Shown here: positions 355 through 56,055 of the stretch, in pieces
How positions within the stretch are numbered: the first letter of the stretch is position 1
How the letters are laid out: each line of letters starts with the position of its first letter
NCBI GenBank assembly: GCA_013177895.1
Contig: JABLXV010000006.1
Span: 1-64,000 of the forward strand
Direction: 5' to 3'
Source: Brevinematales bacterium
GTDB taxonomy: Bacteria > Spirochaetota > Brevinematia > Brevinematales > GWF1-51-8
DNA: 64,000 nt
Program-made: the position numbers and the translations under genes
The notes under the pieces: generated by a model
Databases searched by the model: none
The model's input: the letters and a program-made list of their open reading frames with translations, nothing else
What the model was told of the DNA's origin: nothing

Positions 355-990
355 CTAGGCCTCCATAAGGATTATTTTATTGATAAAGAAGCGGATATGC
401 TCCTCAGAGCGCTTTTCGACCTCCGAGGTATCCCATCCGTAAGCGGAAAGTACGAGGTACTCGAGATGGATCGCGCGCCCGGAATAGAAAAATTCATGCG
501 CGAGAAGCTCCGGGTCGTGACGCGGGATTTTTTTATGCTCGATCATTTTTGAAAATATCAGCGTTCCCATACGGAAGGTTCGCCCGGTTTCCTGTAAAAT
601 CGCCTCGCCCGCGCGCGGGTCGCGATACTGCTCCATCGAAATAATTCTCCAGAGCAGGCCTTCGAGGGTCGAGACCGAGTCGCGATAGTACTGCTTACTG
701 CTTGACAGCCAGAACTCGACGGGATCGGCCGCACGGACGCGCGCGTCGATCATGTCCTCTGACGGCGTACCGGCGTTCATTCCGTCGGCGAACCGGCGGT
801 AGACCTCGACAAGCAGGGCGTCTTTGGAGGGGTAATGATTATAGAATGAGCTTTCCTTGATGCCGACCGCGCGGCAGATGTCCCTGACCGAAACGCCGTT
901 ATATCCGTCCTTCGAGAACAGTTCGGCGGCGCGCAGGAACAGACGTTCCTTAGTGGGGATCAGGATCGAATCGTCTAAAGTTTCCGGCAA
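355..990 (-). CDS. TetR/AcrR-family transcriptional regulator
   Basis: A protein of 211 residues, the usual TetR length. Residues about 13-60 form the DNA-binding domain: TKERLFLRAAELFSKDGYNG followed by the helix-turn-helix VSVRDICRAVGIKESSFYNH and YPSKDALL. The rest is an all-helical ligand domain with no recognisable ligand signature. The start is a TTG at 990, six bases after a strong AAGGAGGG ribosome-binding site. A near-consensus promoter lies at 1046-1074, and tandem CGTT units between promoter and start could be its own operator. The downstream CPBP protease begins at the base after the stop codon, so the regulator probably controls that gene and itself. The inducer is unknown. Confidence 0.9.
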   Translation of the reverse strand: MPETLDDSILIPTKERLFLRAAELFSKDGYNGVSVRDICRAVGIKESSFYNHYPSKDALLVEVYRRFADGMNAGTPSEDMIDARVRAADPVEFWLSSSKQYYRDSVSTLEGLLWRIISMEQYRDPRAGEAILQETGRTFRMGTLIFSKMIEHKKIPRHDPELLAHEFFYSGRAIHLEYLVLSAYGWDTSEVEKRSEEHIRFFINKIILMEA

Positions 991-1016
991 GAGCCCTCCT
1001 TTTAGGGGTGCGAGCT

Positions 1017-1074
1017 AACGTTCGTTCGTTCTTCCACCCGGCTTTATTTTACCATATCCTTTCCTCCTTGTCAA
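1017..1074 (-). promoter_or_regulatory. Sigma-70 promoter and candidate operator of the TetR gene
   Basis: On the minus strand TTGACA (1074-1069) is followed after 17 bases by TAAAAT (1051-1046). Transcription would start near 1039. Just downstream, at about 1018-1031, AACGTTCGTTCGTT carries three CGTT units in tandem, placed where a bound repressor would block initiation. The promoter is seen directly; the operator role is inferred. Confidence 0.65.
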
Positions 1075-1176
1075 ATCCCGCAATATGTCGATCGCTTGCC
1101 TCAACAATAATGATGCGGAACAGCGTTTCACCACCGTTCCGCATATATTCTCACTGAAGTAGGAGGGGTTTAATAC

Positions 1177-3147
1177 TTATAGACCCAGTATCGCCTGATA
1201 GCGGTCTGATACCTCGCCCGCGGGCATCATGTAATTATACAGGTTGACCGTATCGATTATCCCGTCGAACCCGAAATTAAAATAGGTCGTATTGTAGATA
1301 TTGGTAATCTGCGCTCCGATCACGACCGGAGCGTCGTTCGTGCGAATCTCGCCCAGACCGTGCGCTTTACTTGCCTGAAGCACGCCGTTCACATACAGGC
1401 ACATATTCGTCGTGTCCCATGTTCCGACGATATGATACCATGTATCGTTCAGCAGCGCGTATGTCCCATGCACCTCGGTCGCGCCGCCGCTCATCCCGTT
1501 CAGGTAAAGATACGGCACGGACGTAGTCCAGAGTTGGAGGCTATAGCATTCGTCGGAAAAATCGGTAAGAATTCCCTTGTGGACTATTCCCGCGAATGAA
1601 ACGAACGCGTCCATTTTAATCAGAGCCTCGACAGTGCCCTGAATACCGAGCGCATTATTTGAAGATGCGGGAACCGTCATATAATTGGTGAGCCCTGAGA
1701 AGTCGTATCCGTTACCGGTCAGACTATTGGTCGCGGGAACCGCGCCGTAATTATTGGTCTCGTTAAAAAGCGACGTGCCGGGGAATGTATAGCTCGCGGA
1801 TGCTGCAACGGAGCTAATCCACGATGCGCGGATCGCTATTGCTTGAACGGTTTTGGACGACAGAAGCGATATAGGCCCGGTGTAGAGTATCGACGACGCG
1901 CTGGGGGCGCTCCCGTCAAGCGTATAGTACACGGATACGCCGGGGGTCGCGCATGTGATCACCAGATTTGTCGCCAGAGGGTATTCCCCGGACGGCAGGC
2001 CGAATACCGGCGCGGATGCTTTCAGCGAATAGGTATTGGTCACCGTATCCGAGTTAAAATATCCCGCTTTATGACACATGGATAATAATGTTACGTTACC
2101 GTCGATAATGACTTCCGTGTTAGTCAGCCATGTCGTCCCGCCATCGGTCGAATAGACAATGCCCGCGCCGGCAGTATCGCCGGGCGTGATGTACGCGGTG
2201 AACGACGCGGTATACTGGCCGCTCACGGGGGATACCGACGGTTTCGAGGCCTTCATATTGTAGGTGACATTCAACGTACCGGAATCGACCCAGCCGGCCT
2301 TGACGGCGCGCGCGAAGACGGTCATGGTGCGGCTGACGGCGAGCGAGGCGTTGGTGATCCATTCCGCGCCGCCATTGGTGGAATAGATGATCGATGCGCC
2401 GATTGTAGGCGTCGTCAATGTTAACACAAAGTCATTGCTGTATGTGCCTGCAGGGGCGTCGAAGCTGACGTTGGAGACCTTGTGGGTGATCGTATAGATA
2501 TTGGAAACGGCGTCGGAGTTTGTCATCCCGTAGAGGAAGCCGACCGCGGTGACCACGGTATCGGAGTATATATCGACCGGTACGGTATAGAGCGTGGAAG
2601 CGCCGCCGTTAAGTGTATAGCGGATAGCCGAGTTGGACGTGCCGCAATCCATCTCCACCTGCACGGTGTCGAGGTACGCGCCCGAAACAGGCGTAATCAC
2701 CGGGCTCTCGACCTTTCCGCCGAGCACCGATATTTCAAAGATGGAGGAATTGGTCTTGCTGTGGTTTCCCGACGAATCGACCGCGAATACCTTCAGGGTA
2801 TGGCTCCCGTTCGATAAACCCGTCAACGCACTGCTGAACGTGTAAAGCCCGTTGGTGCTCTCGAGTAACGTCAATTCGATTTCCGCGGAACCGTCGAGCG
2901 AATAGTAAGCGTTGCTGACCTCGATATTATCCCTGACCTGCCCGGTAAAAAGTACCGAACTAGAATCGTTGGTAGACCCGCTGACGGGCGAAACGTTGGT
3001 AATGACCGGCGAAATGGTATCCAGCGTCACCTGAGGCGTCGTCCCTCCGGGCTTACTTGGCGCGGCAACCGGGCCGACGCTGCAAGCGGTAATCGACAGG
3101 AAAAACATCACCCCCGTGATAAAAAACAATCCTTTGTCTTTTTTCAT
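1177..3147 (-). CDS. Secreted lipoprotein with Ig-like/chitobiase-type repeats and a LamG domain
   Basis: About 656 residues from an ATG at 3147, which has AAGGAG upstream and gives a lipoprotein signal (MKKDKGLFFITGVMFFLSIT then AC). An in-frame ATG at 3210 overlaps a TATAAT-like -10 and is unlikely to be used. After a short linker comes an Ig-like module (SPVITNVSPVSGSTNDSSSV), then four or five modules of about 80 residues with the chitobiase C-terminal-type signature (ASIIYSTNGG, GIVYSTDGGTTW, VSVYYTLDG). The last 190 residues form a LamG/concanavalin-like domain (QGTVEALIKMDAF, WYHIVGTWDTTNMCLYVNG). The modules suggest a surface protein binding a polysaccharide; no catalytic domain is visible. 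Confidence 0.8.
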   Translation of the reverse strand: MKKDKGLFFITGVMFFLSITACSVGPVAAPSKPGGTTPQVTLDTISPVITNVSPVSGSTNDSSSVLFTGQVRDNIEVSNAYYSLDGSAEIELTLLESTNGLYTFSSALTGLSNGSHTLKVFAVDSSGNHSKTNSSIFEISVLGGKVESPVITPVSGAYLDTVQVEMDCGTSNSAIRYTLNGGASTLYTVPVDIYSDTVVTAVGFLYGMTNSDAVSNIYTITHKVSNVSFDAPAGTYSNDFVLTLTTPTIGASIIYSTNGGAEWITNASLAVSRTMTVFARAVKAGWVDSGTLNVTYNMKASKPSVSPVSGQYTASFTAYITPGDTAGAGIVYSTDGGTTWLTNTEVIIDGNVTLLSMCHKAGYFNSDTVTNTYSLKASAPVFGLPSGEYPLATNLVITCATPGVSVYYTLDGSAPSASSILYTGPISLLSSKTVQAIAIRASWISSVAASASYTFPGTSLFNETNNYGAVPATNSLTGNGYDFSGLTNYMTVPASSNNALGIQGTVEALIKMDAFVSFAGIVHKGILTDFSDECYSLQLWTTSVPYLYLNGMSGGATEVHGTYALLNDTWYHIVGTWDTTNMCLYVNGVLQASKAHGLGEIRTNDAPVVIGAQITNIYNTTYFNFGFDGIIDTVNLYNYMMPAGEVSDRYQAILGL

Positions 3148-41229: not shown

Positions 41230-41787
41230 ATGAAAAACATAATCGTAGCGGTATCATTGGCGGTTATCATAGTTTTAACCGGCTTGACGGCCTGCGGGAG
41301 TAAAGAAAAGACGGATAATCCCGTCCCGAAAGCGGAGATAGCCGCGCCCGCGGTCACCCATATCGGTACCGGGAATTTTTCACTGGCTTGGGTTCTCACC
41401 GAAAGTAATATCACGTTTACCCTGAGGGGTAAGACGACCGGTTGGATAGCCCTCATGGTCGACCCTAAGAATAAAATGAAGGACGGCGATATCTATATCG
41501 GGTATGTGAAGGACGGCCAAGCCTATATGCAGGACGAGTTCGGCGTACAGCCGTGGAAGCATCAGCCGGATACGGAACTCGGCGGGAAGGATCAGATACT
41601 TTCATGCGAGGGGACGGAGAAGGACGGATTCACTGAAATCAAGTTTGTCGTCGACCTGACCTCGCGCGATAAGTTCGATTCGACCTTCGGCCCGGGCGAC
41701 CATAATCTGGTTTTCGCCGCCGGCCCCGACGACAGTTTTACATCCAAGCATAATCAGCTTGCGATGATCGGGACGAGGTTTCAATAA
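41230..41787 (+). CDS. DOMON-domain lipoprotein
   Basis: A protein of 185 residues with AGGAGG before the ATG and a lipoprotein signal (IIVAVSLAVIIVLTGLTAC). The mature part is one DOMON beta-sandwich: NFSLAWVLTESNITFTLRGK, TTGWIALMVDPKNKMKDGDI, YIGYVKDGQAYMQDEF, then ILSCEGTEKDGFTEIKFVVD and DHNLVFAAGPDD. The GWIALMVDP-like strand and ADIYIG-type loop are those of haem- or sugar-binding DOMON domains. The next gene, two bases later, is a DUF4405 membrane protein, so a small redox pair like cytochrome b561-DOMON is plausible. Confidence 0.87.
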   Translation: MKNIIVAVSLAVIIVLTGLTACGSKEKTDNPVPKAEIAAPAVTHIGTGNFSLAWVLTESNITFTLRGKTTGWIALMVDPKNKMKDGDIYIGYVKDGQAYMQDEFGVQPWKHQPDTELGGKDQILSCEGTEKDGFTEIKFVVDLTSRDKFDSTFGPGDHNLVFAAGPDDSFTSKHNQLAMIGTRFQ

Positions 41788-41789
41788 GT

Positions 41790-42029
41790 ATGAAGAGTAA
41801 ATATCTGAAATACCTGAACCCCGTTCTGTTTCTCGCGATCCTGATTCAGTTGATCACCATTTCGATTTTTAAGATGCAGGATTTCGGGTGGGTTTCCGCG
41901 CCGTCATGGATATCCGATGTGCATGATATTAACGGGACAGTTTTCGCGGGACTGGCGATTGCGCATATCATCCTGAACTGGGGATGGATCAAGAGCACGA
42001 TACTTGGGATCAAGCCGAAAGCAAAGTAA
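41790..42029 (+). CDS. DUF4405-type small membrane protein
   Basis: A protein of 79 residues with two predicted helices: YLNPVLFLAILIQLITISIF and INGTVFAGLAIAHIILNWGW. Histidines near residue 45 (SDVHDINGTV) and 59 (IAHIILNWGWIKS) sit where DUF4405 / cytochrome b561-like proteins coordinate haem, and the HxxLNW ending is typical. With two helices it would have to dimerise to bind b-type haem. Two bases after the DOMON lipoprotein; the two are surely cotranscribed and may pass electrons across the inner membrane. Confidence 0.8.
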   Translation: MKSKYLKYLNPVLFLAILIQLITISIFKMQDFGWVSAPSWISDVHDINGTVFAGLAIAHIILNWGWIKSTILGIKPKAK

Positions 42030-42670: not shown

Positions 42671-42847
42671 TTATATCCCTAACTGTTTGCGGATCAGCAT
42701 GCATAACGTTTCTTTGATCTCGGAGTGGCGCGGAATCGGCGCAATTTTTCCGTTGTTTTCATTTTCGAATATATCGTGCCGGCTCCCGTGACGCTTAATA
42801 TGGCATCCTTTAGCCGTCAACTCCTTCAGGAACAGGGCTCGTTTCAA
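42671..42847 (-). CDS. hicA: HicA-family mRNA interferase toxin
   Basis: A protein of 58 residues starting at a TTG (42847-42845) that overlaps the HicB stop codon (TTGA). Sequence: KRALFLKELTAKGCHIKRHG, SRHDIFENENNGKIAPIPRH, SEIKETLCMLIRKQLGI. It has the double-stranded RNA-binding-like HicA fold, with the catalytic histidine in HGSRHDIF, the PIPRHSEI strand and the C-terminal helix of the family. HicA cleaves mRNA and is neutralised by HicB. The gene is intact, but the weak start suggests low, translation-coupled expression. Confidence 0.88.
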   Translation of the reverse strand: MKRALFLKELTAKGCHIKRHGSRHDIFENENNGKIAPIPRHSEIKETLCMLIRKQLGI

Positions 42848-43050
42848 GAATCGACCCCGATTTCTTTATGGAATACTTCGCTCTTTAGCTCGATTTCGTT
42901 CGAATCCGACATCATTTTATACGCGTCTTTCAGGTTGACTTCTAACTCCTCGACGGTCTTCCCTTGACTGAATATCCCGGGAATCTCTTTCAGCCGCCCG
43001 ACATACCAACCTTCGTCCATCCAGTATTCCATTGTATAAGTATGAAGCAT
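42844..43050 (-). CDS. hicB: HicB-family antitoxin
   Basis: A protein of 68 residues: MEYWMDEGWYVGRLKEIPGI, FSQGKTVEELEVNLKDAYKM, with the HicB partial RNase H fold (G-Y-x-x-x-P-E-x-P-G pattern, then T-x-E-E-L). It lacks a C-terminal DNA-binding domain, so it may regulate only by binding the toxin. It precedes hicA, the reverse of the usual hicA-hicB order, and its stop overlaps the hicA start. GAGG precedes the ATG at 43050. Confidence 0.88.
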   Translation of the reverse strand: MLHTYTMEYWMDEGWYVGRLKEIPGIFSQGKTVEELEVNLKDAYKMMSDSNEIELKSEVFHKEIGVDS

Positions 43051-44317: not shown

Positions 44318-44352
44318 AGTTCCAGAAAGACGTGCAAATAGTAGGAGGGAAA

Positions 44353-44562
44353 ATGTCATCCGGCGTTCGTGAAGTCATCGAAGAATTCGAGCAGCTCTCG
44401 GAATCAGATAAAGAGTATGTCGCGGAAATTATTCAGAAGCAGATGAATGATCTGAAACGGGAGGAAATTTTTAACCGCTCGTTGGAAGCGCGTTCTAATA
44501 TGGAAAAGGAACATTCTTCAATCGGGACTGCCGGCGAATTGCTACAGGATTTGGAAAAATGA
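44353..44562 (+). CDS. Antitoxin of a YafQ/RelE-type system
   Basis: A protein of 69 residues from the ATG at 44353, seven bases after GGAGG. It is helical and acidic (SSGVREVIEEFEQLSESDKE, YVAEIIQKQMNDLKREEIFN) and ends IGTAGELLQDLEK, the kind of C-terminal clamp that wraps RelE/YafQ toxins. The EFEQLSESDKEYVAEII start is common in addiction-module proteins next to RelE-like toxins. ATGA overlap with the toxin gene. No clear helix-turn-helix or ribbon-helix-helix, so autoregulation is uncertain. Confidence 0.78.
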   Translation: MSSGVREVIEEFEQLSESDKEYVAEIIQKQMNDLKREEIFNRSLEARSNMEKEHSSIGTAGELLQDLEK

Positions 44563-44828
44563 TCCAATTCATCTGGGATTCGGCGTTTAAGCGAAGATAT
44601 AAGAAGGTAATTGAAACGCACCCTGAATGGAAAGATCGGTTTACGGAATCAGTCATATTATTTTCAGAAAATCCCTATCATAAGAAACTAAAAACCCATA
44701 AACTCTCCGGTAAATTAAAAGGCCTCTGGGCATTCAGCGTCGACTATGACTGCAGGGTAGTTTTTGAGTTTATTAAGGAAGATACCGTTCTGCTTATCGA
44801 TATCGGTTCCCATGACGACGTCTATTAA
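44559..44828 (+). CDS. RelE/YafQ-family toxin
   Basis: A protein of 89 residues: IWDSAFKRRYKKVIETHPEW, then HKKLKTHKLSGKLKGLWAFS, VDYDCRVVFEFIKEDTVLLI and DIGSHDDVY. The LKTHKLSGKLKG...WS.D.R....F pattern and terminal IGSHDDVY are those of YafQ-type ribosome-dependent mRNA interferases of the RelE/ParE superfamily, with the terminal histidine-aspartate kept. It is translationally coupled to the antitoxin. The pair lies between two identical 37-bp repeats. Confidence 0.88.
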   Translation: MIQFIWDSAFKRRYKKVIETHPEWKDRFTESVILFSENPYHKKLKTHKLSGKLKGLWAFSVDYDCRVVFEFIKEDTVLLIDIGSHDDVY

Positions 44829-44868: not shown

Positions 44869-44905
44869 AATTCTTGAGAAAAACGGGCGATGGGTGCATA
44901 TTATA
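44869..44905. repeat. 37-bp direct repeat, right copy
   Basis: Exact copy of 44203-44239. It contains TTGAGA, 17 bases, CATATT and lies 18 bases before the GTG at 44924, so it is probably the promoter of the large secreted gene. A diverged relative (GGGTACATATTGTATTATC) lies before the paralogue, at 48425-48443. Confidence 0.85.
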
Positions 44906-44923: not shown

Positions 44924-47900
44924 GTGAAAAAATACCTTCCTTCTATAATAACATTCCTCATCGCCGCGTACGTGGTTCCGTCAACCGCTCAAAGCGGTAT
45001 CGTCCCCGCGATGAAGGGGCTTGAGACGGCATATCCGTCGCTACCCGCGCAGACGGCGATCCTTTCGGGGAATAATGTCCCCGGCGCCGATTTCCAGAAG
45101 GCGTTTATCAGCCTCAAGAAATATATCGCCGGTTCCGATCCCGACGTGCTTCACGGGTGGAAACTGGTGCTGCAGGAGGAGTATTTCCTGAAATGCAGCG
45201 CTCCGGCGGCGAACGGGATAAAGATCGACGGGAAGGATACGGAGTGGGGGGACGGCGGGTTTGCCGTGAACGACAGCCCCACAAATAACCCGTCGAAAAA
45301 TCCCGCGCTCGATATTATAGGCGCGAGTTTCGTTTTCGACGGGGATACCCTTTACGGGGTCTACCGCACGGCAAAGAAACCCGCCAATCCGGGATGGTAT
45401 CTCGTTCTGATCGACTATACCGGCGACGGGTACTGCGATTTTCAGGTCGGGACGGGATGGAACGCACAGGGTGTTCCGGCGATGTGGATGAACGATCTGA
45501 TCGCGAAGAAAAATTCCCTTCCCGTGAAGGCGGAATTCGCGGCGGGCGATGTGTTCGAGTTCTCCCTGAAATTATCCCAGTTCGGGCTGCCGGCGTCGAA
45601 ATATAAACCGAACATCCTGATATGGGCGCAGAGTTCCGATACGGCGTTCAAGGTTGTCGAAAGCTGCGGGCCCGCGACGGTGATGCACCGGATGGAAAAC
45701 TCCGCGCTCGCGTTGTATCTCGCCCTGCTCGCGCGGGACTGCTACCGGCCGGGCGACAGTATCACCGCCGCAATCGCGCTCGCGAATAGTCTGGTCTATT
45801 CCCTGGCGGATGACGAGGTGAAAAAGGCCATCGCGGACGACGCGGTCAAGCAGTACCAATTCTACCGGAAAATCGTCGATTGGCAGGATAGCTGGAAATG
45901 CCCCTACGCGCTCGAAAAAGCGTCCCTCGTGCCGAAGATTTTCTGGGCCGACCGCGCCCGATATTCCCACTATTATTTTACCGACGCGATGTACCGGATG
46001 AAACTGGACAAGATGAATATGGACATCTACCGCGAGTTTGTCGACCGTATCGATGTGCTGGATAAAATCCATAATATTATCGTTGATAACGGCCTTGCGG
46101 TAATAGCTATGGAAGTGACCGCCCGTAACCTCGAGGACTGGGTGCACGCCCACCGGATGTACCTCAGCAGTATCGAGAATATGGATACCTTCTACGCCGA
46201 TAACGTGGCATGGAAGGAGCAGTGGGAGAACGCCCACAAATTATATAAGGAAGGAAAGTACTATGTGGAGTACTTCGGCAAGAAGTACCGTTGGGACGAT
46301 TTCCGCTGGATCAACTACCAGTACAATCACCTAGTGAAGGACGGGTGTTTTATCGGCGACTGCGGGGATACGACGGTCGCGCAGATGGCGTTTTACCGCG
46401 CCTCGGGAATAGCTCCCGCCTCGTTCCAGCATACCGACCCCTACGGTACCGCGCTCGCCTCGCATAACTATCCCGCGCATTACGACCCCAACCTCAAGCG
46501 GTGGTATGTCTATCAAATCCCGCGTTTCTACTCCGGCGGGAAAGAGAAACCCGATATGCCGCTTGTGTTCTATTTTAACAAGCCCTACTGGCACCCGTGG
46601 AAAAGCGCCGATAACTGGATAAATATTAAAAAAGGCAATGCGAATTATGCCTTTTCCTATTTCTACCCCGGCGAGCAGGTCAATTCCTATGCCTACGCGA
46701 ATTTTATGACAATGGGGATGTCCGAATCGCTCTTGGAGTTTTTATTCTTCTCGAATATTACCCTGCGGGAAGGGACGATTTTCAATAAAGATACCGCTCC
46801 GAAGAAGATCGCCGATACCGACGGAGACGGACTTCCCGATACGCTCGAGAAGGACTATAGTACCGACGCGAAGAAGTGGGACTCCGACGGCGACGGGTAT
46901 TCCGATTATTGGGAGATTACCCACGCGCTCAACCCTATGAAAAAGACCCTGCCCTCACAGTTGCCGGGAGTTCCGCTCGCGGTGGACGGATTCCTCGGGG
47001 ACTGGAACGCCGTGCAAGGAAAAATTTATGTAATCGATCCGCCGTCCGATTCCACTGTCAAGCAGAATGTTTACGATATCTCGAATTTCAATGTTTACTC
47101 CGATAGTCAAAACATCTACCTCGGCGCGGGGTTCTACGGAAATCCCGCCGGGAATAAATCGTACAACCTCGAGTTCTGGATCAATTTCCCCGGGATGACT
47201 CCCGCGACCTACTGGTACGGCGGGGGCTATATGTCGGTATGGGGTACGCATAACCTGCTCCGAAGCGCGATCTCAGTTTTAACCCCCGATGGAAAATGGA
47301 CGAACCTTATCTGCTCGATCGGCAACGATTACATTATCACCGGGAACGCGCTCGAAGCGGCGCTCCCGGTGAAGGTTATCGGCAATCCCGTATGGGCGGA
47401 TATCACGTTCCTGGTCAATTCCGGCCCCGAGGGGAAAGAGGTGGACGGCTCCGATTCGACTGAACGGATTATCTATCAGCTCCAGCCGGACGCGGACGGG
47501 GACAACCTTTCCGACAGCGTCGAGAAGGCCATCGGTACCGATCTGTCGAAATGGGACACGGACGGCGATATGGTCTCCGATTTCTGGGAATGGCGGCACG
47601 GTTCCGACCCGTTATCGGCGGGCAGTCCCGGGTTGAAGGGTAAGATCGCGCTCGACGGGTTTTCCGCCGATATCGCGGCGTTTCCCGGCGCGGTGAGTGT
47701 CGCCGACCCGCAGGGCGACCCGGTGACTCAGGAGAATATGTATGACATCTCTACGATTGCCGCCGCAGTATCGGGGGATACCCTTTATATCGGGGTGAAA
47801 TTCTATAATAACCCGCTCGGGAACCTCGGCAAGAATCATTGCCTGTGGATTACGGCCGACGGCGGGCGGGAGTACTGGATCGGCGGGGGGTGGAATACGA

Positions 47901-48139
47901 TGGGCGGAATAGACTATAATCAGCCGTTACTCCTGCGCGCGAAAAAGGGCGAGCAGTGGACGGATATTCCCGATACCAAGGGCGCGGAAATCGCGATCAA
48001 GCAGGACGTCGAGTTCGCGATACCGCTGAAGTATATCGGGAATCCCAAGACGATATCGTTTATATATTACGTGACGTTCGGCCCGGAGGACAAGGAGACA
48101 TACGGCGCGGATCAGTCGGAATTAATCAAGGTAAAATGA
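44924..48139 (+). CDS. Giant secreted protein 1: CBM9-like / transglutaminase-like / TSP3 modules
   Basis: A protein of 1071 residues from a GTG at 44924 after AGGAGG. Signal peptide: KKYLPSIITFLIAAYVVPST. Module order: CBM9/DOMON-like domain (about 98-250; GIKIDGKDTEWGDGGFAVND, GDGYCDFQVGTGW); a long helical region (250-470); a transglutaminase-like segment with Cys480 in GCFIGDCGDTTVAQMAFYRA and His514 in ALASHNYPAHYDP; a first calcium-binding TSP3 pair (628-675; DTDGDGLPDTLEKDY, DSDGDGYSDYWE); a second CBM9-like domain (about 684-845); a second TSP3 pair (855-900); a third CBM9-like domain to the end. Its neighbour at 48457 has the same plan. Probably a calcium-stabilised surface or secreted enzyme or adhesin bound to glycan; the reaction is not known. 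Confidence 0.8.
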   Translation: MKKYLPSIITFLIAAYVVPSTAQSGIVPAMKGLETAYPSLPAQTAILSGNNVPGADFQKAFISLKKYIAGSDPDVLHGWKLVLQEEYFLKCSAPAANGIKIDGKDTEWGDGGFAVNDSPTNNPSKNPALDIIGASFVFDGDTLYGVYRTAKKPANPGWYLVLIDYTGDGYCDFQVGTGWNAQGVPAMWMNDLIAKKNSLPVKAEFAAGDVFEFSLKLSQFGLPASKYKPNILIWAQSSDTAFKVVESCGPATVMHRMENSALALYLALLARDCYRPGDSITAAIALANSLVYSLADDEVKKAIADDAVKQYQFYRKIVDWQDSWKCPYALEKASLVPKIFWADRARYSHYYFTDAMYRMKLDKMNMDIYREFVDRIDVLDKIHNIIVDNGLAVIAMEVTARNLEDWVHAHRMYLSSIENMDTFYADNVAWKEQWENAHKLYKEGKYYVEYFGKKYRWDDFRWINYQYNHLVKDGCFIGDCGDTTVAQMAFYRASGIAPASFQHTDPYGTALASHNYPAHYDPNLKRWYVYQIPRFYSGGKEKPDMPLVFYFNKPYWHPWKSADNWINIKKGNANYAFSYFYPGEQVNSYAYANFMTMGMSESLLEFLFFSNITLREGTIFNKDTAPKKIADTDGDGLPDTLEKDYSTDAKKWDSDGDGYSDYWEITHALNPMKKTLPSQLPGVPLAVDGFLGDWNAVQGKIYVIDPPSDSTVKQNVYDISNFNVYSDSQNIYLGAGFYGNPAGNKSYNLEFWINFPGMTPATYWYGGGYMSVWGTHNLLRSAISVLTPDGKWTNLICSIGNDYIITGNALEAALPVKVIGNPVWADITFLVNSGPEGKEVDGSDSTERIIYQLQPDADGDNLSDSVEKAIGTDLSKWDTDGDMVSDFWEWRHGSDPLSAGSPGLKGKIALDGFSADIAAFPGAVSVADPQGDPVTQENMYDISTIAAAVSGDTLYIGVKFYNNPLGNLGKNHCLWITADGGREYWIGGGWNTMGGIDYNQPLLLRAKKGEQWTDIPDTKGAEIAIKQDVEFAIPLKYIGNPKTISFIYYVTFGPEDKETYGADQSELIKVK

Positions 48140-48212
48140 AAATTGCGCAAACTGCGGGAATGGTTTTTATGGAAAAATGGGGGTGTCTTAAAATCCTATA
48201 TTTGAGAAGGTT

Positions 48213-48347
48213 TGTCGTTGCGAACCCCGCGCTGTAATATATTTTCGATGCGAGGGGTGAAGCAATCCATCATATTAACTGATAAATAAAACAGACTGCT
48301 TCTACCGCGCTTCAAAAAATTTTGTAGCGCGGCATCGCGGTGACAGA
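48213..48347. repeat. TGTCATTGCGA-type palindromic repeat, copy D
   Basis: Starts TGTCGTTGCGAACCCCGCGC, contains GAAGCAATCCATCATATTAA and AACAGACTGCTTCTACCGC, ends GCGGCATCGCGGTGACAGA. It fills most of the spacer between the two giant secreted genes; its right half is like that of copy B. Confidence 0.82.
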
Positions 48348-48393
48348 CTTTTCCGCCATTTGTTTCCTTTGAAACAGAGTCTTTTTTTCGCCG

Positions 48394-48424
48394 AACAATC
48401 CCGCGCCTGCGGGAGATTGTTTTT
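48394..48424 (+). terminator. Hairpin with T-run before the second giant gene
   Basis: AACAATCCCGC (48394-48404) pairs with GCGGGAGATTGTT (one bulged base) and is followed by TTTT. It can end transcription from the first giant gene so that the second is controlled separately. Confidence 0.6.
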
Positions 48425-48456
48425 GGGTACATATTGTATTATCGAAGGAGGACGCA

Positions 48457-51400
48457 ATGAAGAGTATTCTTATTCGCGCGGCAGCGCTGGGGTTGTTTTT
48501 ATTTTCCGGAAATGTTCTTTTCGCGACGCCGGTCAAAATATCGCCGGAATCGCAGAAGCAATTAAAAAAACTCGAAGCGAAGTATCCGACCATCTACGCG
48601 CAGGTAAATACGGGCGCGGAGAACGATCTCCTCGGTATCGATTACGATAACGCGTTATACAATCTTTCAGGTTACCTCGCGGACACCGGGGCGGATATCC
48701 GTCAGGGTATGGATATGATTCTTCAGGCGTCGTTCTACCAGAGCAAGACGTCTCCCCCGGCGGATCAGGTAACAATCGACGGCGACGCTTCGGAATGGGC
48801 GGGGGCCGGATGGGATAAACTCGACGAGAAGGGCGATAACCCCGGTAAGAATCCCGCTCTCGATATTGTCCGTGCGAGCGCGGTCATCCATGACGGGATA
48901 CTCTATGGGGTCATTGAAACGGCGAAAAAGCCCACATTCCCCAACCGTTTTGTGGTGTATCTCGATACGACGGCGGACGGGTATTACGATTACCAGTTCA
49001 TCGCAGGATGGGAAAAAGACGGCACGAAAGTTTCATGGATGAACGATTTTGTAAAGAAGGTATCCGGTTTCCCGTTTGAGGCCGATGTCTTCTGCGGGAA
49101 TGTCTTCGAGTACGCAATCCCGCTGGACCAGATCAGTACAAAATTAAAAGATATGCCTGAAATGATAAATATAGGCGTACAGACGGCGGACAAGGATTTT
49201 AAGTATACCGAGGGGCTTGACCTTATCCCCGTTTGCCGGGTGATGGAGAACCTGCCGTTAACCATGCTTCTCTACCTCATGGATAAAGGCGTCGCGCCCG
49301 AAGGGGACAGTATCCCCGAGGCGCTTTCGCTTGCGAACGGATTCCTTTACTCGGTTTCGGATAAAACCGTCCGCGGGATGATAGCCAAGGATTTGGTGAA
49401 ACAGTACGAACTCTATAAAAAAATCTGCGAATGGCAGGAAGGGTGGGGATGCCCCTACCCGCTGGAGAAACTGCCCGTCATCCCGAAAATATTCTGGGCA
49501 GACCGTTCGCGTTATTCCGACTCTGCAATTTACGATGCCATGCGGATATTCAAGGTGAAGTCCGTTACCAAGGAAATCTACAACGAGTTTGTCGATAAAA
49601 TAGGCATACTCGAAGCGATTCACGGGCTTGTTGTGAAAAACAATCTGGCAAAAAAGGATATATCGATTACCGCGGGGGTGTTGGACGAATGGGTACACCG
49701 TTACCGGCTATACCTCAGCAGTATGGAAAACCTCGAGATGTTCAACAAGTGGGGATGGTACACGGATGAAATGCTCGCCAAAGCGAAAAAGATGAAGAAC
49801 GAGGGGAAGTATTTCCAGAATTACTTCGGACGGGAACACCGTTGGGACGATTTTGCATGGCTGAATTACCAGTATGGCCATTTTATCAAGGACGGGTGTT
49901 TTATCGGCGACTGCGGGAGCACGACGGTCGTCCAGATGGGGGTATACCGGATGGCGGGAATTGCGCCGGTCTCTTTCCAGATGATCGATCTATCCGATTA
50001 TGCCGTCTACACGCATAACTTTCCCGGCTACTTCGACCCCGCGCTCAACCGGTGGTGTTTCTATCAGGTGCCGAATCCCATCGGGCCCGGCGGGAAGTAT
50101 ATGGGCGATAATGCGATCGTTCTGCATTTTAACAAGCCGTTTCCGCATCCGTGGCTATATTACGGAAACTATCAGAATATAAAGGTAGGAAAGAAAGAAG
50201 TCTGCGCCTACTTATACTATCCAGGGGAAATGACGGTGGTTCAGAAGATGATTAATTTCCTGAAAACGGGTCTCCCGGCTAAGAAAATGGATACTATTTT
50301 TATGACGAATATCACGCTGGTAAAAGGGTTATTATTCGATAAAACCTCCGCGCCGGATAAGCTGACCGATTCCGATAACGACGGCCTGTACGATATAGTG
50401 GAAAACGATATCGGGCTGAATGCCGCCGGTTGGGATTCCGACGGCGACGGGTATTCCGATTTATGGGAGCTTCATAACGGGCAAAATCCGCTCAAGACGG
50501 ACGCATGGGGCACGGTCGCGGTCGACGGATTTATCGGAGAGTGGAAAGGGTCGGATGGCGTAACGGTGGTGAAAGACCCTCAGGGCGACTCGACGGTAAA
50601 AGTAAATGTTTTCGATATAGCCGCCTTTTATGTTCTTCCCAAGGACGAAAAAATCTATCTGGGATGCGAGTTCTTCGGCGAACCGGCGAAAAGCAGTCTC
50701 AAGGTTTTCGGGTTCTGGATCGACGCGCCGGGACGGTTCCCGGTCTCCTACTGGTTCGGGGTATACGACAAGGAGTGGGGTTCGTATACCGCGATGGCCG
50801 GGAATATGGAAGTCAATTACCAGCCTGAAAAATGGAGCAATCTTAATTCAGTATTGGACGAGCATTATGTGATCGGCAAGGATATAGAAGCGGCGCTTCC
50901 GATGGCGTATATTTACTATCCGGTCTGGTTATCGGTGAAAGTGATACTGACATCCGGCCCGAAGGGTAATGAAGTGAGAGGATCGGACGAGGCGGATCGT
51001 GTGTACATCAAGATTGCTGAGGACGGCGATAACGACAGTCTTTCCGACGAGTTCGAGATAAAAATCGGCGCCGATCCCGCGAAGTGGGATACCGACGGCG
51101 ACCTGATATCGGATAACTGGGAGTACTGGCACGGGTACGACCCGTTATCGGCGAAAAGCCCCGCGTTGAAGAATCAGGCCGCGCTCGACGGATTTGCCGA
51201 CGACATCGAGAAACTCCCCGGAGCGGCGATCGGGAACGATCCCAAGGGCGACACGCTCCTGCAGGATAACGGTTACGATATCGCGTCGATCGCCGCCGCG
51301 AAGGCGGGCGGGAATTTATACATCGGGGTGAAATTCCACGGCGATAACACTTATAAGTCGTGCGTGCATTATGCGTTGGAGATAACCGCCGACGGGTCGC

Positions 51401-51675
51401 GGCAGTATTGGGTGGGTTCGGGATGGGATACGATGGCCGGGCCGGATATCTACCAGAGTCTGTGGATTACCAAGAAATCAGGGAAAAGCGGGGATTGGCC
51501 GGCTATTCCGAAAATGGACGGCGCATGGCTGTATGCCAAACGCGACGCGGAATTTGTCATACCGCTGGCCTATCTGGGTAATCCTAAAACGATTACTGTG
51601 AAGGCGGCGGTGACAATAAAAACCAAGGAAAATGATAATCAATGGAATGACGATTCCGGGGAGCTGAAATTATAA
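48457..51675 (+). CDS. Giant secreted protein 2: CBM9-like / transglutaminase-like / TSP3 modules
   Basis: A protein of 1072 residues, tandem paralogue of the gene before it. GGAGGACGCA precedes the ATG; signal peptide KSILIRAAALGLFLFSGNVLFA. Same order: CBM9-like (about 105-265; QVTIDGDASEWAGAGWDKLD), helical region, transglutaminase-like segment with Cys486 (DGCFIGDCGSTTVVQMGVYR) and His520 (YTHNFPGYFDPALNRW), TSP3 pair (634-680; DSDNDGLYDIVENDI, DSDGDGYSDLWE), CBM9-like (687-845), TSP3 pair (854-898), CBM9-like to the end. The best kept stretch between the two is around the cysteine (HFIKDGCFIGDCGSTTV), which argues that it is an active site. A third catalytic acid at the usual distance is not evident. 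Confidence 0.8.
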   Translation: MKSILIRAAALGLFLFSGNVLFATPVKISPESQKQLKKLEAKYPTIYAQVNTGAENDLLGIDYDNALYNLSGYLADTGADIRQGMDMILQASFYQSKTSPPADQVTIDGDASEWAGAGWDKLDEKGDNPGKNPALDIVRASAVIHDGILYGVIETAKKPTFPNRFVVYLDTTADGYYDYQFIAGWEKDGTKVSWMNDFVKKVSGFPFEADVFCGNVFEYAIPLDQISTKLKDMPEMINIGVQTADKDFKYTEGLDLIPVCRVMENLPLTMLLYLMDKGVAPEGDSIPEALSLANGFLYSVSDKTVRGMIAKDLVKQYELYKKICEWQEGWGCPYPLEKLPVIPKIFWADRSRYSDSAIYDAMRIFKVKSVTKEIYNEFVDKIGILEAIHGLVVKNNLAKKDISITAGVLDEWVHRYRLYLSSMENLEMFNKWGWYTDEMLAKAKKMKNEGKYFQNYFGREHRWDDFAWLNYQYGHFIKDGCFIGDCGSTTVVQMGVYRMAGIAPVSFQMIDLSDYAVYTHNFPGYFDPALNRWCFYQVPNPIGPGGKYMGDNAIVLHFNKPFPHPWLYYGNYQNIKVGKKEVCAYLYYPGEMTVVQKMINFLKTGLPAKKMDTIFMTNITLVKGLLFDKTSAPDKLTDSDNDGLYDIVENDIGLNAAGWDSDGDGYSDLWELHNGQNPLKTDAWGTVAVDGFIGEWKGSDGVTVVKDPQGDSTVKVNVFDIAAFYVLPKDEKIYLGCEFFGEPAKSSLKVFGFWIDAPGRFPVSYWFGVYDKEWGSYTAMAGNMEVNYQPEKWSNLNSVLDEHYVIGKDIEAALPMAYIYYPVWLSVKVILTSGPKGNEVRGSDEADRVYIKIAEDGDNDSLSDEFEIKIGADPAKWDTDGDLISDNWEYWHGYDPLSAKSPALKNQAALDGFADDIEKLPGAAIGNDPKGDTLLQDNGYDIASIAAAKAGGNLYIGVKFHGDNTYKSCVHYALEITADGSRQYWVGSGWDTMAGPDIYQSLWITKKSGKSGDWPAIPKMDGAWLYAKRDAEFVIPLAYLGNPKTITVKAAVTIKTKENDNQWNDDSGELKL

Positions 51676-51745: not shown

Positions 51746-51943
51746 ATGGTAGGGAGTATCGGAAGCCCGGTCAATCCGGCGCAAATGATCGCGAAATCTG
51801 TACAGAACATGGACGAGCTGTCACAGAAAATTATCGACGCTATTCAGGGAATGAGCACCAAATTTGTGAAGGTCTCCGCCGAACTACAGGTAGGGGCTAT
51901 GATGGACGAGACTACCGGAAATGCCGTAGATATGTTCGTTTAA
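51746..51943 (+). CDS. Small hypothetical protein (YjfB-like appearance)
   Basis: A protein of 65 residues with AAGGAGGG before the ATG: VGSIGSPVNPAQMIAKSVQN, MDELSQKIIDAIQGMSTKFV, KVSAELQVGAMMDETTGNAV ending DMFV. It is amphipathic-helical, without signal peptide or cysteine. Size and pattern (NPAQ...helix...ETTGN) are reminiscent of small motility-associated proteins such as YjfB, but similarity is too weak to name it. It lies 70 bases after the second giant gene, has its own ribosome site and is closed by a strong terminator, so it may be the last gene of that unit. Confidence 0.65.
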   Translation: MVGSIGSPVNPAQMIAKSVQNMDELSQKIIDAIQGMSTKFVKVSAELQVGAMMDETTGNAVDMFV

Positions 51944-53911: not shown

Positions 53912-54565
53912 ATGGAAAAACATAACCTATTCTATGAATTATTAGAATCCCTTCAAAAACATCAATGTTCTGCGTGTTTCTATATGCAAAATTCTATTTC
54001 AAGATACTTCGATAATATTTTATACGAAAGCGTCATGGATTCTGGATTTATTGCAAACTTTAGAAAAAATGAGGGTTTTTGTAATGATCATGCATATAAA
54101 TTTCTAAGCTATAAGGATGGATTGGCGACCGCCAGACTTTATTATTATCTTTCACAGGATATCAATATCAATTTAAAAAAGGAAAACCGGATCGGTTACG
54201 GATTTAGAAAACATTACGGATGCCAAATCTGCGATTTTATTCAATCTACGGAAGAGATTATTATCGATGCGATCGGAGAATATCTTTTCGAACCGGAATA
54301 TGAAAACGCTTTTAAAAGTTCATACTGTTTATGTTATCCTCACTACATGAGATTAATAAAGGCATCAAAACGAAAACTACCGAAATGGCTGATTGATTTT
54401 CATAACTTAAAATTTGATGAGATAACAGAAAAACTTAAATCTTATCTGGATTTCCAAAATTTCTCATTAGGGGATAAGCGCCCGCAATTGACATACGAGG
54501 AACAATTGATTTATCAGGAAGCTGTCAGGTTTTTTTCTGGTTATGAAGGAATGAAAACAAAATAA
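53912..54565 (+). CDS. DUF6062-like cysteine/histidine-rich cytosolic protein
   Basis: A protein of 217 residues without signal peptide. Regularly spaced Cys and His: HQCSACFYMQNSISRYFDNI near residue 20, NEGFCNDHAYKFL near 55, HYGCQICDFIQS near 107, SSYCLCYPHYMRLI near 145. The CxxC ... GFCxxH ... CxxC ... LCxxH arrangement is that of the DUF6062 family, whose function is unknown; metal binding is likely. The gene is more AT-rich than its neighbours and uses many AAA/AAT/TTA codons, hinting at transfer. TTAGGAG precedes the ATG. Confidence 0.75.
   Translation: MEKHNLFYELLESLQKHQCSACFYMQNSISRYFDNILYESVMDSGFIANFRKNEGFCNDHAYKFLSYKDGLATARLYYYLSQDININLKKENRIGYGFRKHYGCQICDFIQSTEEIIIDAIGEYLFEPEYENAFKSSYCLCYPHYMRLIKASKRKLPKWLIDFHNLKFDEITEKLKSYLDFQNFSLGDKRPQLTYEEQLIYQEAVRFFSGYEGMKTK

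Positions 54566-54702: not shown

Positions 54703-56055
<1,353 letters not shown>

Follow-up and report, generated by a model that had tools for sequence, protein, structure and literature searches.

In an uncultured spirochaete (Brevinematales bacterium, GCA_013177895.1), two adjacent genes are best explained as old duplicates, lying in tandem, of a gene for a secreted enzyme with several domains. Both proteins combine a Cys-His core, which appears to be a very divergent transglutaminase-like domain, with TSP3 calcium repeats and CBM9-like domains; every part is of a known kind, and the combination is unnamed and rare. The first-pass annotation had been unable to match this combination to a named system, and we likewise found it in neither Pfam nor NCBIfam, while a literature search for the architecture returned nothing. 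Judging from the sequences, we lean towards reading the pair as secreted enzymes of a peptidase or amidase type with a Cys-His-Gln active site, tethered to glycan by their accessory domains.

Architecture of the tandem gene pair

In the window, by which we mean the whole stretch of 64,000 nucleotides analysed (contig JABLXV010000006.1), the two open reading frames follow one another on the forward strand at 44924-48139 (protein 1, 1071 residues) and 48457-51675 (protein 2, 1072 residues). Protein 1 starts at a GTG a few bases downstream of AGGAGG, with a longer version from a GTG at 44894 also possible, and protein 2 starts at an ATG with AGGAGG upstream. Signal-peptide-like N-termini were recognized by eye in both, that of protein 1 covering about 22 residues (44924-44989, +). 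Because a terminator-like hairpin (48399-48425, +), about 30-40 bases 5' of the second start, separates the genes, a single transcript may not form. The proteins are 43% identical over a full-length alignment with very few gaps. Their parts follow the order given by the first-pass annotation, namely a CBM9-like domain, a helical region, the Cys-His core, and then twice a TSP3 pair followed by a CBM9-like domain. The word "giant" used there overstates the size of proteins of about 118 kDa. Comparison with orthologues gave dN/dS values of 0.13-0.16 for protein 1 and 0.12-0.17 for protein 2; both genes are under purifying selection, and both copies are therefore maintained.

All domains lie on the forward strand. 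In protein 1, domain alignments and comparison with a PF06452 profile delimit CBM9-like domains 1 (residues 98-252; 45215-45679) and 2 (residues 683-851; 46970-47476), and a domain alignment, profile comparison and structure model delimit domain 3 (residues 906-1071; 47639-48136). The helical region (residues 255-440; 45686-46243) was drawn from the alignment and from helices in a model of low to moderate confidence, and the transglutaminase-like core (about residues 455-600; 46286-46723) from profile alignments. TSP3 pairs 1 (46814-46948) and 2 (47489-47623) were located by Pfam and a motif search. The corresponding parts of protein 2 are CBM9-like domains at 48766-49230, 50509-51015 and 51172-51672, placed by domain alignments; the helical region at 49240-49794, aligned with protein 1 and its homologues; the core at 49837-50274, from alignments and profile comparison; and TSP3 pairs at 50368-50496 (Pfam and motif search) and 51022-51150 (motif search).

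The TSP3 repeats reported earlier were confirmed by Pfam, since TSP3_bac (PF18884) exceeds its 25-bit cut-off in both proteins (44.4 and 27.5 bits); no other domain rose above cut-off in the Pfam search of the two proteins. Each carries four DxDxDxxxD motifs, beginning at residues 631, 653, 856 and 878 in protein 1 and at 638, 660, 856 and 878 in protein 2, compared with 0.008-0.009 motifs per protein in shuffled sequences. By their sequence, these repeats would bind calcium.

Within each protein the three CBM9-like domains can be aligned with one another, and they also align with the CBM9-like domains of relatives. They share with CBM9_1 (PF06452) a D-G-x-x-x-[ED]-W start, a D-x-LY strand and an E-x-x-[IL]-P strand, and their profile scored 31.6 against PF06452 domains of other spirochaetes, compared with 14.6 for the best shuffled control. 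None of the 17 CBM9-like domains tested had a Pfam CBM9 match above cut-off, and the genome itself yielded no CBM9_1 match. A model of TSP3 pair 2 and CBM9-like domain 3 of protein 1 (pLDDT 82.8, pTM 0.82) is all-beta past the repeats. Its best fold match in the PDB was glucodextranase (1ug9, E 2.7e-3, TM 0.32). Many immunoglobulin folds ranked below it, and CBM9 structures were absent from the best 50; as modelled, the fold would be a beta-sandwich, and the match says no more than that. The best fold match also led us to consider the glucodextranase C-terminal domain (PF09985), a candidate we rejected because its profile score was at the level of shuffled controls, with the caveat that one row in this comparison had been read on the wrong strand. 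The CBM9-like assignment made in the first pass is thus upheld by the profile comparison and finds no backing in Pfam matches or significant fold matches, so that a remote kinship of these domains with CBM9 is weakly supported.

The Cys-His core and transglutaminase-like domains

The assignment of the core, proposed earlier as transglutaminase-like, is carried by profile comparisons. A profile covering the core together with the helical region, built from the six rows of alignment A5 plus the homologues L092 and L099, scored 34.2 (E 3.6e-4) against 14 transglutaminase domains of the same order, with the Cys and His residues of the two sides in register. These 14 domains were a Pfam selection, made without regard to any resemblance to the core, and the highest score among 30 column-shuffled control profiles was 22.0. 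Searching with the core profile also returned ordinary transglutaminase-like proteins from unrelated phyla (L100, L101 and L158), the third of them from the phylum to which a Flavobacteriaceae genome belongs. Alignment A5 matched L100 and L101 with E 2.9e-6 and probability 88, placing Gln over the catalytic Asp; as both were themselves retrieved with this profile, the comparison serves as a check of register and not as independent proof. Transglut_core (PF01841) has no match in either window protein at the Pfam gathering cut-off of 23 bits, and it gave sub-threshold matches at matching columns in three homologues, L090, L095 and L099 (12.3, 15.4 and 13.4 bits).

The resemblance to PF01841 extends to a G-x-C motif at the Cys followed by G-I-[AP], a His before a strand, a Trp immediately preceding the third residue, and the order and spacing of these elements. 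The differences are that all tested homologues stay under the Pfam cut-off, that Gln or Glu takes the place of Asp, and that the window proteins add a long helical domain N-terminal to the core and TSP3 and CBM9-like domains C-terminal to it. PDB sequence searches with protein 1, the core profile and the CBM9-like profile returned nothing usable; the best matches of a short core profile were peptide:N-glycanases (E 0.16, not significant). These enzymes (PDB 1x3w, 3esw) have the transglutaminase fold and match around the catalytic His and third residue, but they carry Asp where the window cores have Gln, are intracellular and lack TSP3 and CBM9-like domains.

That the core is not transglutaminase-like at all, and that a Cys-bearing helix and a His-bearing strand resemble the fold by chance, seems to us highly improbable. 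In its favour, no match passes any curated cut-off, and the full-length structure model, built from a seven-sequence alignment, has a pLDDT of only 45 (23-45 in the core region), too low for it to serve as a guide to the fold. Nevertheless, the core score exceeds its shuffled controls, independent sub-threshold Pfam matches fall on the same columns, and the profile retrieves ordinary members of the superfamily from unrelated phyla. The Cys and His of transglutaminase-like domains are retained in these alignments, which support the core as a very divergent transglutaminase-like domain (papain-like, clan CA) of remote homology.

The Cys, His and Trp are invariant across seven diverged cores that share only about 20-30% identity. 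The third residue is Gln in six of the seven and Glu in the other, the Asp usual for the superfamily being absent from all. In protein 1 the three residues are C480 (46361-46363, +), H514 (46463-46465) and Q531 (46514-46516), and in protein 2 C486 (49912-49914, +), H520 (50014-50016) and Q537 (50065-50067). Asn, Gln, Asp and Glu all appear as third residues in a review of papain-like enzymes (PMC10318531), and the vasohibins, active-site variants within the transglutaminase-like group (PMC4866520), are Cys-His-Ser proteases that offer a precedent for an altered third residue; they differ from the window proteins in being eukaryotic, in having Ser/Thr instead of Gln and in sharing no domains. 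With Gln accepted in papain-like enzymes and with the vasohibin precedent, catalysis by the core is plausible on sequence grounds.

The replacement of the catalytic Asp could also mean that the Cys and His are purely structural and that the proteins are non-enzymatic surface or adhesion proteins, forming a calcium-stiffened, glycan-binding fibre. Such a role would fit the presence of three domains of the binding type and two pairs of TSP3 repeats in each protein, and also the existence of a homologue that lacks the core (L091, below). We consider it unlikely, while taking it seriously: the Cys and His have stayed invariant in cores of such low identity, a short protein with no other domain (L099) also retains both, and Gln is an accepted third residue. 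The first-pass annotation had offered a surface filament or an exo-enzyme; the filament found no support, and the exo-enzyme is favoured.

Distribution and genomic surroundings

Our distribution searches were samples of groups. Within them, full-length relatives occur only in four genomes of one Brevinematales genus; the metagenome-assembled genomes nearest by this locus are GWF1_49_6, DeMMO6_14 and GWF1_51_8. Two of the four carry the tandem pair (G000, G002), and the others a single copy, of the protein 1 type in G001 (L005) and of the protein 2 type in G003 (L006). This pattern suggests that the duplication predates the members of the genus and that one copy was lost twice. In the first copy of the tandem locus L004, around residues 861-920, nucleotide identity is 0.85 to its own tandem neighbour and 0.70-0.82 to the orthologue, a pattern in the second TSP3 pair that resembles local gene conversion. 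What looked like a frameshift in the second L004 copy was rejected, as it is an assembly gap with identical bases on either side.

Homologues of the core were found in 9 of 393 Spirochaetota genomes, the four of the genus included. L074 (631 residues) has the helical region, core, one TSP3 pair and one CBM9-like domain, and further Spirochaetota homologues are L089 (823 residues), L090 (841-860 residues) and L095 (588 residues). L091 (377 residues; 751-1881, minus strand) keeps the helical part, TSP3 and CBM9-like domain and lacks the core, so the remainder may serve alone. L092 is a truncated, frameshifted remnant with a broken Cys-His core. Among 195 genomes of a verrucomicrobial phylum, we found a single short Cys-His-Gln protein without other domains (L099), and the core was absent from the 193 genomes of a myxobacterial phylum and the 32 mixed genomes searched. 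A similarity search gave 66 loci, of which those past the first three matched through TSP3 repeats and surroundings only. We rejected a phage or mobile-element origin, as phages and viral contigs gave no match.

In the window, as in L004 and L005, the locus is flanked by bioB and an MCP gene; in L006 it precedes that same MCP gene. The first-pass annotation had asked whether the pair and the small gene that follows are conserved together. This gene (51746-51943, +), 3' of the pair, encodes a 65-residue protein that Pfam assigns to no family; every one of the four genomes in the genus keeps it and it went undetected in 27 further genomes, whereas the tandem pair itself occurs in only two of the four. 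Since the whole locus is syntenic, their co-occurrence gives no separate indication that they are functionally linked. An operon with conserved partners was rejected for the distant homologues, whose neighbours differ from genome to genome.

Several other features of the surroundings were recorded. Directly 5' of protein 1, overlapping reading frames at 44332-44562 and 44559-44828 resemble a toxin-antitoxin pair (toxin YafQ/ParE-like, 38.7 bits). Further upstream are a gene for a DOMON-domain lipoprotein (41230-41787) followed by one for a small membrane protein (41790-42029), possibly a redox pair, and a small HicB-like frame (UPF0150; 42844-43050, minus strand) with no evident partner. Downstream, a fluoride riboswitch (RF01734; 53808-53881, +; 54.8 bits) precedes a DUF6062 gene (53912-54565) and enolase (54721-56055). 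It was not found in L004, L005 or L006, where enolase lies nearer the MCP gene, and this piece therefore looks specific to the genome of the window.

Proposed function of the pair

Each of the four genomes of the genus also encodes one protein (L081, L079, L078 and L082) in which an HExxH...E motif is joined to a TSP3 pair and one or two CBM9-like domains. The motif reads HEINHFLFP...EWC(I/M)EG in three of them. The catalytic part has no Pfam domain above cut-off in any of the four, and one shows a sub-threshold match to Peptidase_M1 (E 0.066), so the name metallopeptidase rests on the HExxH motif. The occurrence of the same tail on two peptidase-type cores suggests that it serves secreted hydrolases, and is the best hint that the gene pair encodes such enzymes.

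A secreted cross-linker, that is, a true acyl transferase at the cell surface or in the matrix positioned by calcium-bound TSP3 linkers and glycan-binding domains, would share the transglutaminase fold relationship of the core and would fit the large multidomain surface build. Moreover, the nearest TSP3 proteins in NCBIfam are the myxobacterial surface adhesion and motility proteins CglD (NF033765) and MtsD (NF047639), for which protein 1 reaches 39.6 of 400 bits and 34.7 of 800 bits, respectively, and protein 2 less. This similarity is restricted to the TSP3 repeats and lies far below the cut-offs, and hydrolysis is suggested by the metallopeptidase-like relatives that share the tail. Bacterial transglutaminase-like domains are mostly thought to be hydrolases, which also weighs against cross-linking, and we regard this alternative as improbable.

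For the favoured hydrolase, we infer export, catalytic activity, amide chemistry, glycan binding and the part played by calcium. Cys480 (Cys486 in protein 2) would act as the nucleophile and His514 (His520) as the base, with Gln531 (Gln537) orienting the His in place of the customary Asp. The likeliest chemistry would be cleavage of a peptide or amide bond, with cross-linking less likely, and the substrate would be extracellular and proteinaceous or a glycoprotein. The CBM9-like beta-sandwiches may anchor the enzyme to a glycan of the cell envelope, the biofilm matrix or a polymer, and the TSP3 pairs may be stiff, calcium-stabilized linkers that join the core to these binding domains.

A bolder proposal is that the core founds a new extracellular Cys-His-Gln family of transglutaminase-like enzymes whose substrates would be glycoproteins or glycans that bear peptides; one example would be a secreted amidase with a mechanism related to that of peptide:N-glycanase. 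Calcium-stiffened CBM9-like arms would hold it in place, the arm being an interchangeable targeting device also used by a spirochaete metallopeptidase. We offer this as a long shot, quite improbable as it stands.

In summary, our analysis provides a testable identity for a family of which current profile libraries recognize only the calcium repeats. The gene pair has no bearing on a long-standing open question. The results suggest that the transglutaminase-like superfamily has a Cys-His-Gln branch within Spirochaetota, and they show one accessory module, a TSP3 pair with a CBM9-like domain, carried by two unrelated peptidase-type cores in the same genus. If active, the pair would represent an undescribed secreted enzyme of uncultured spirochaetes.
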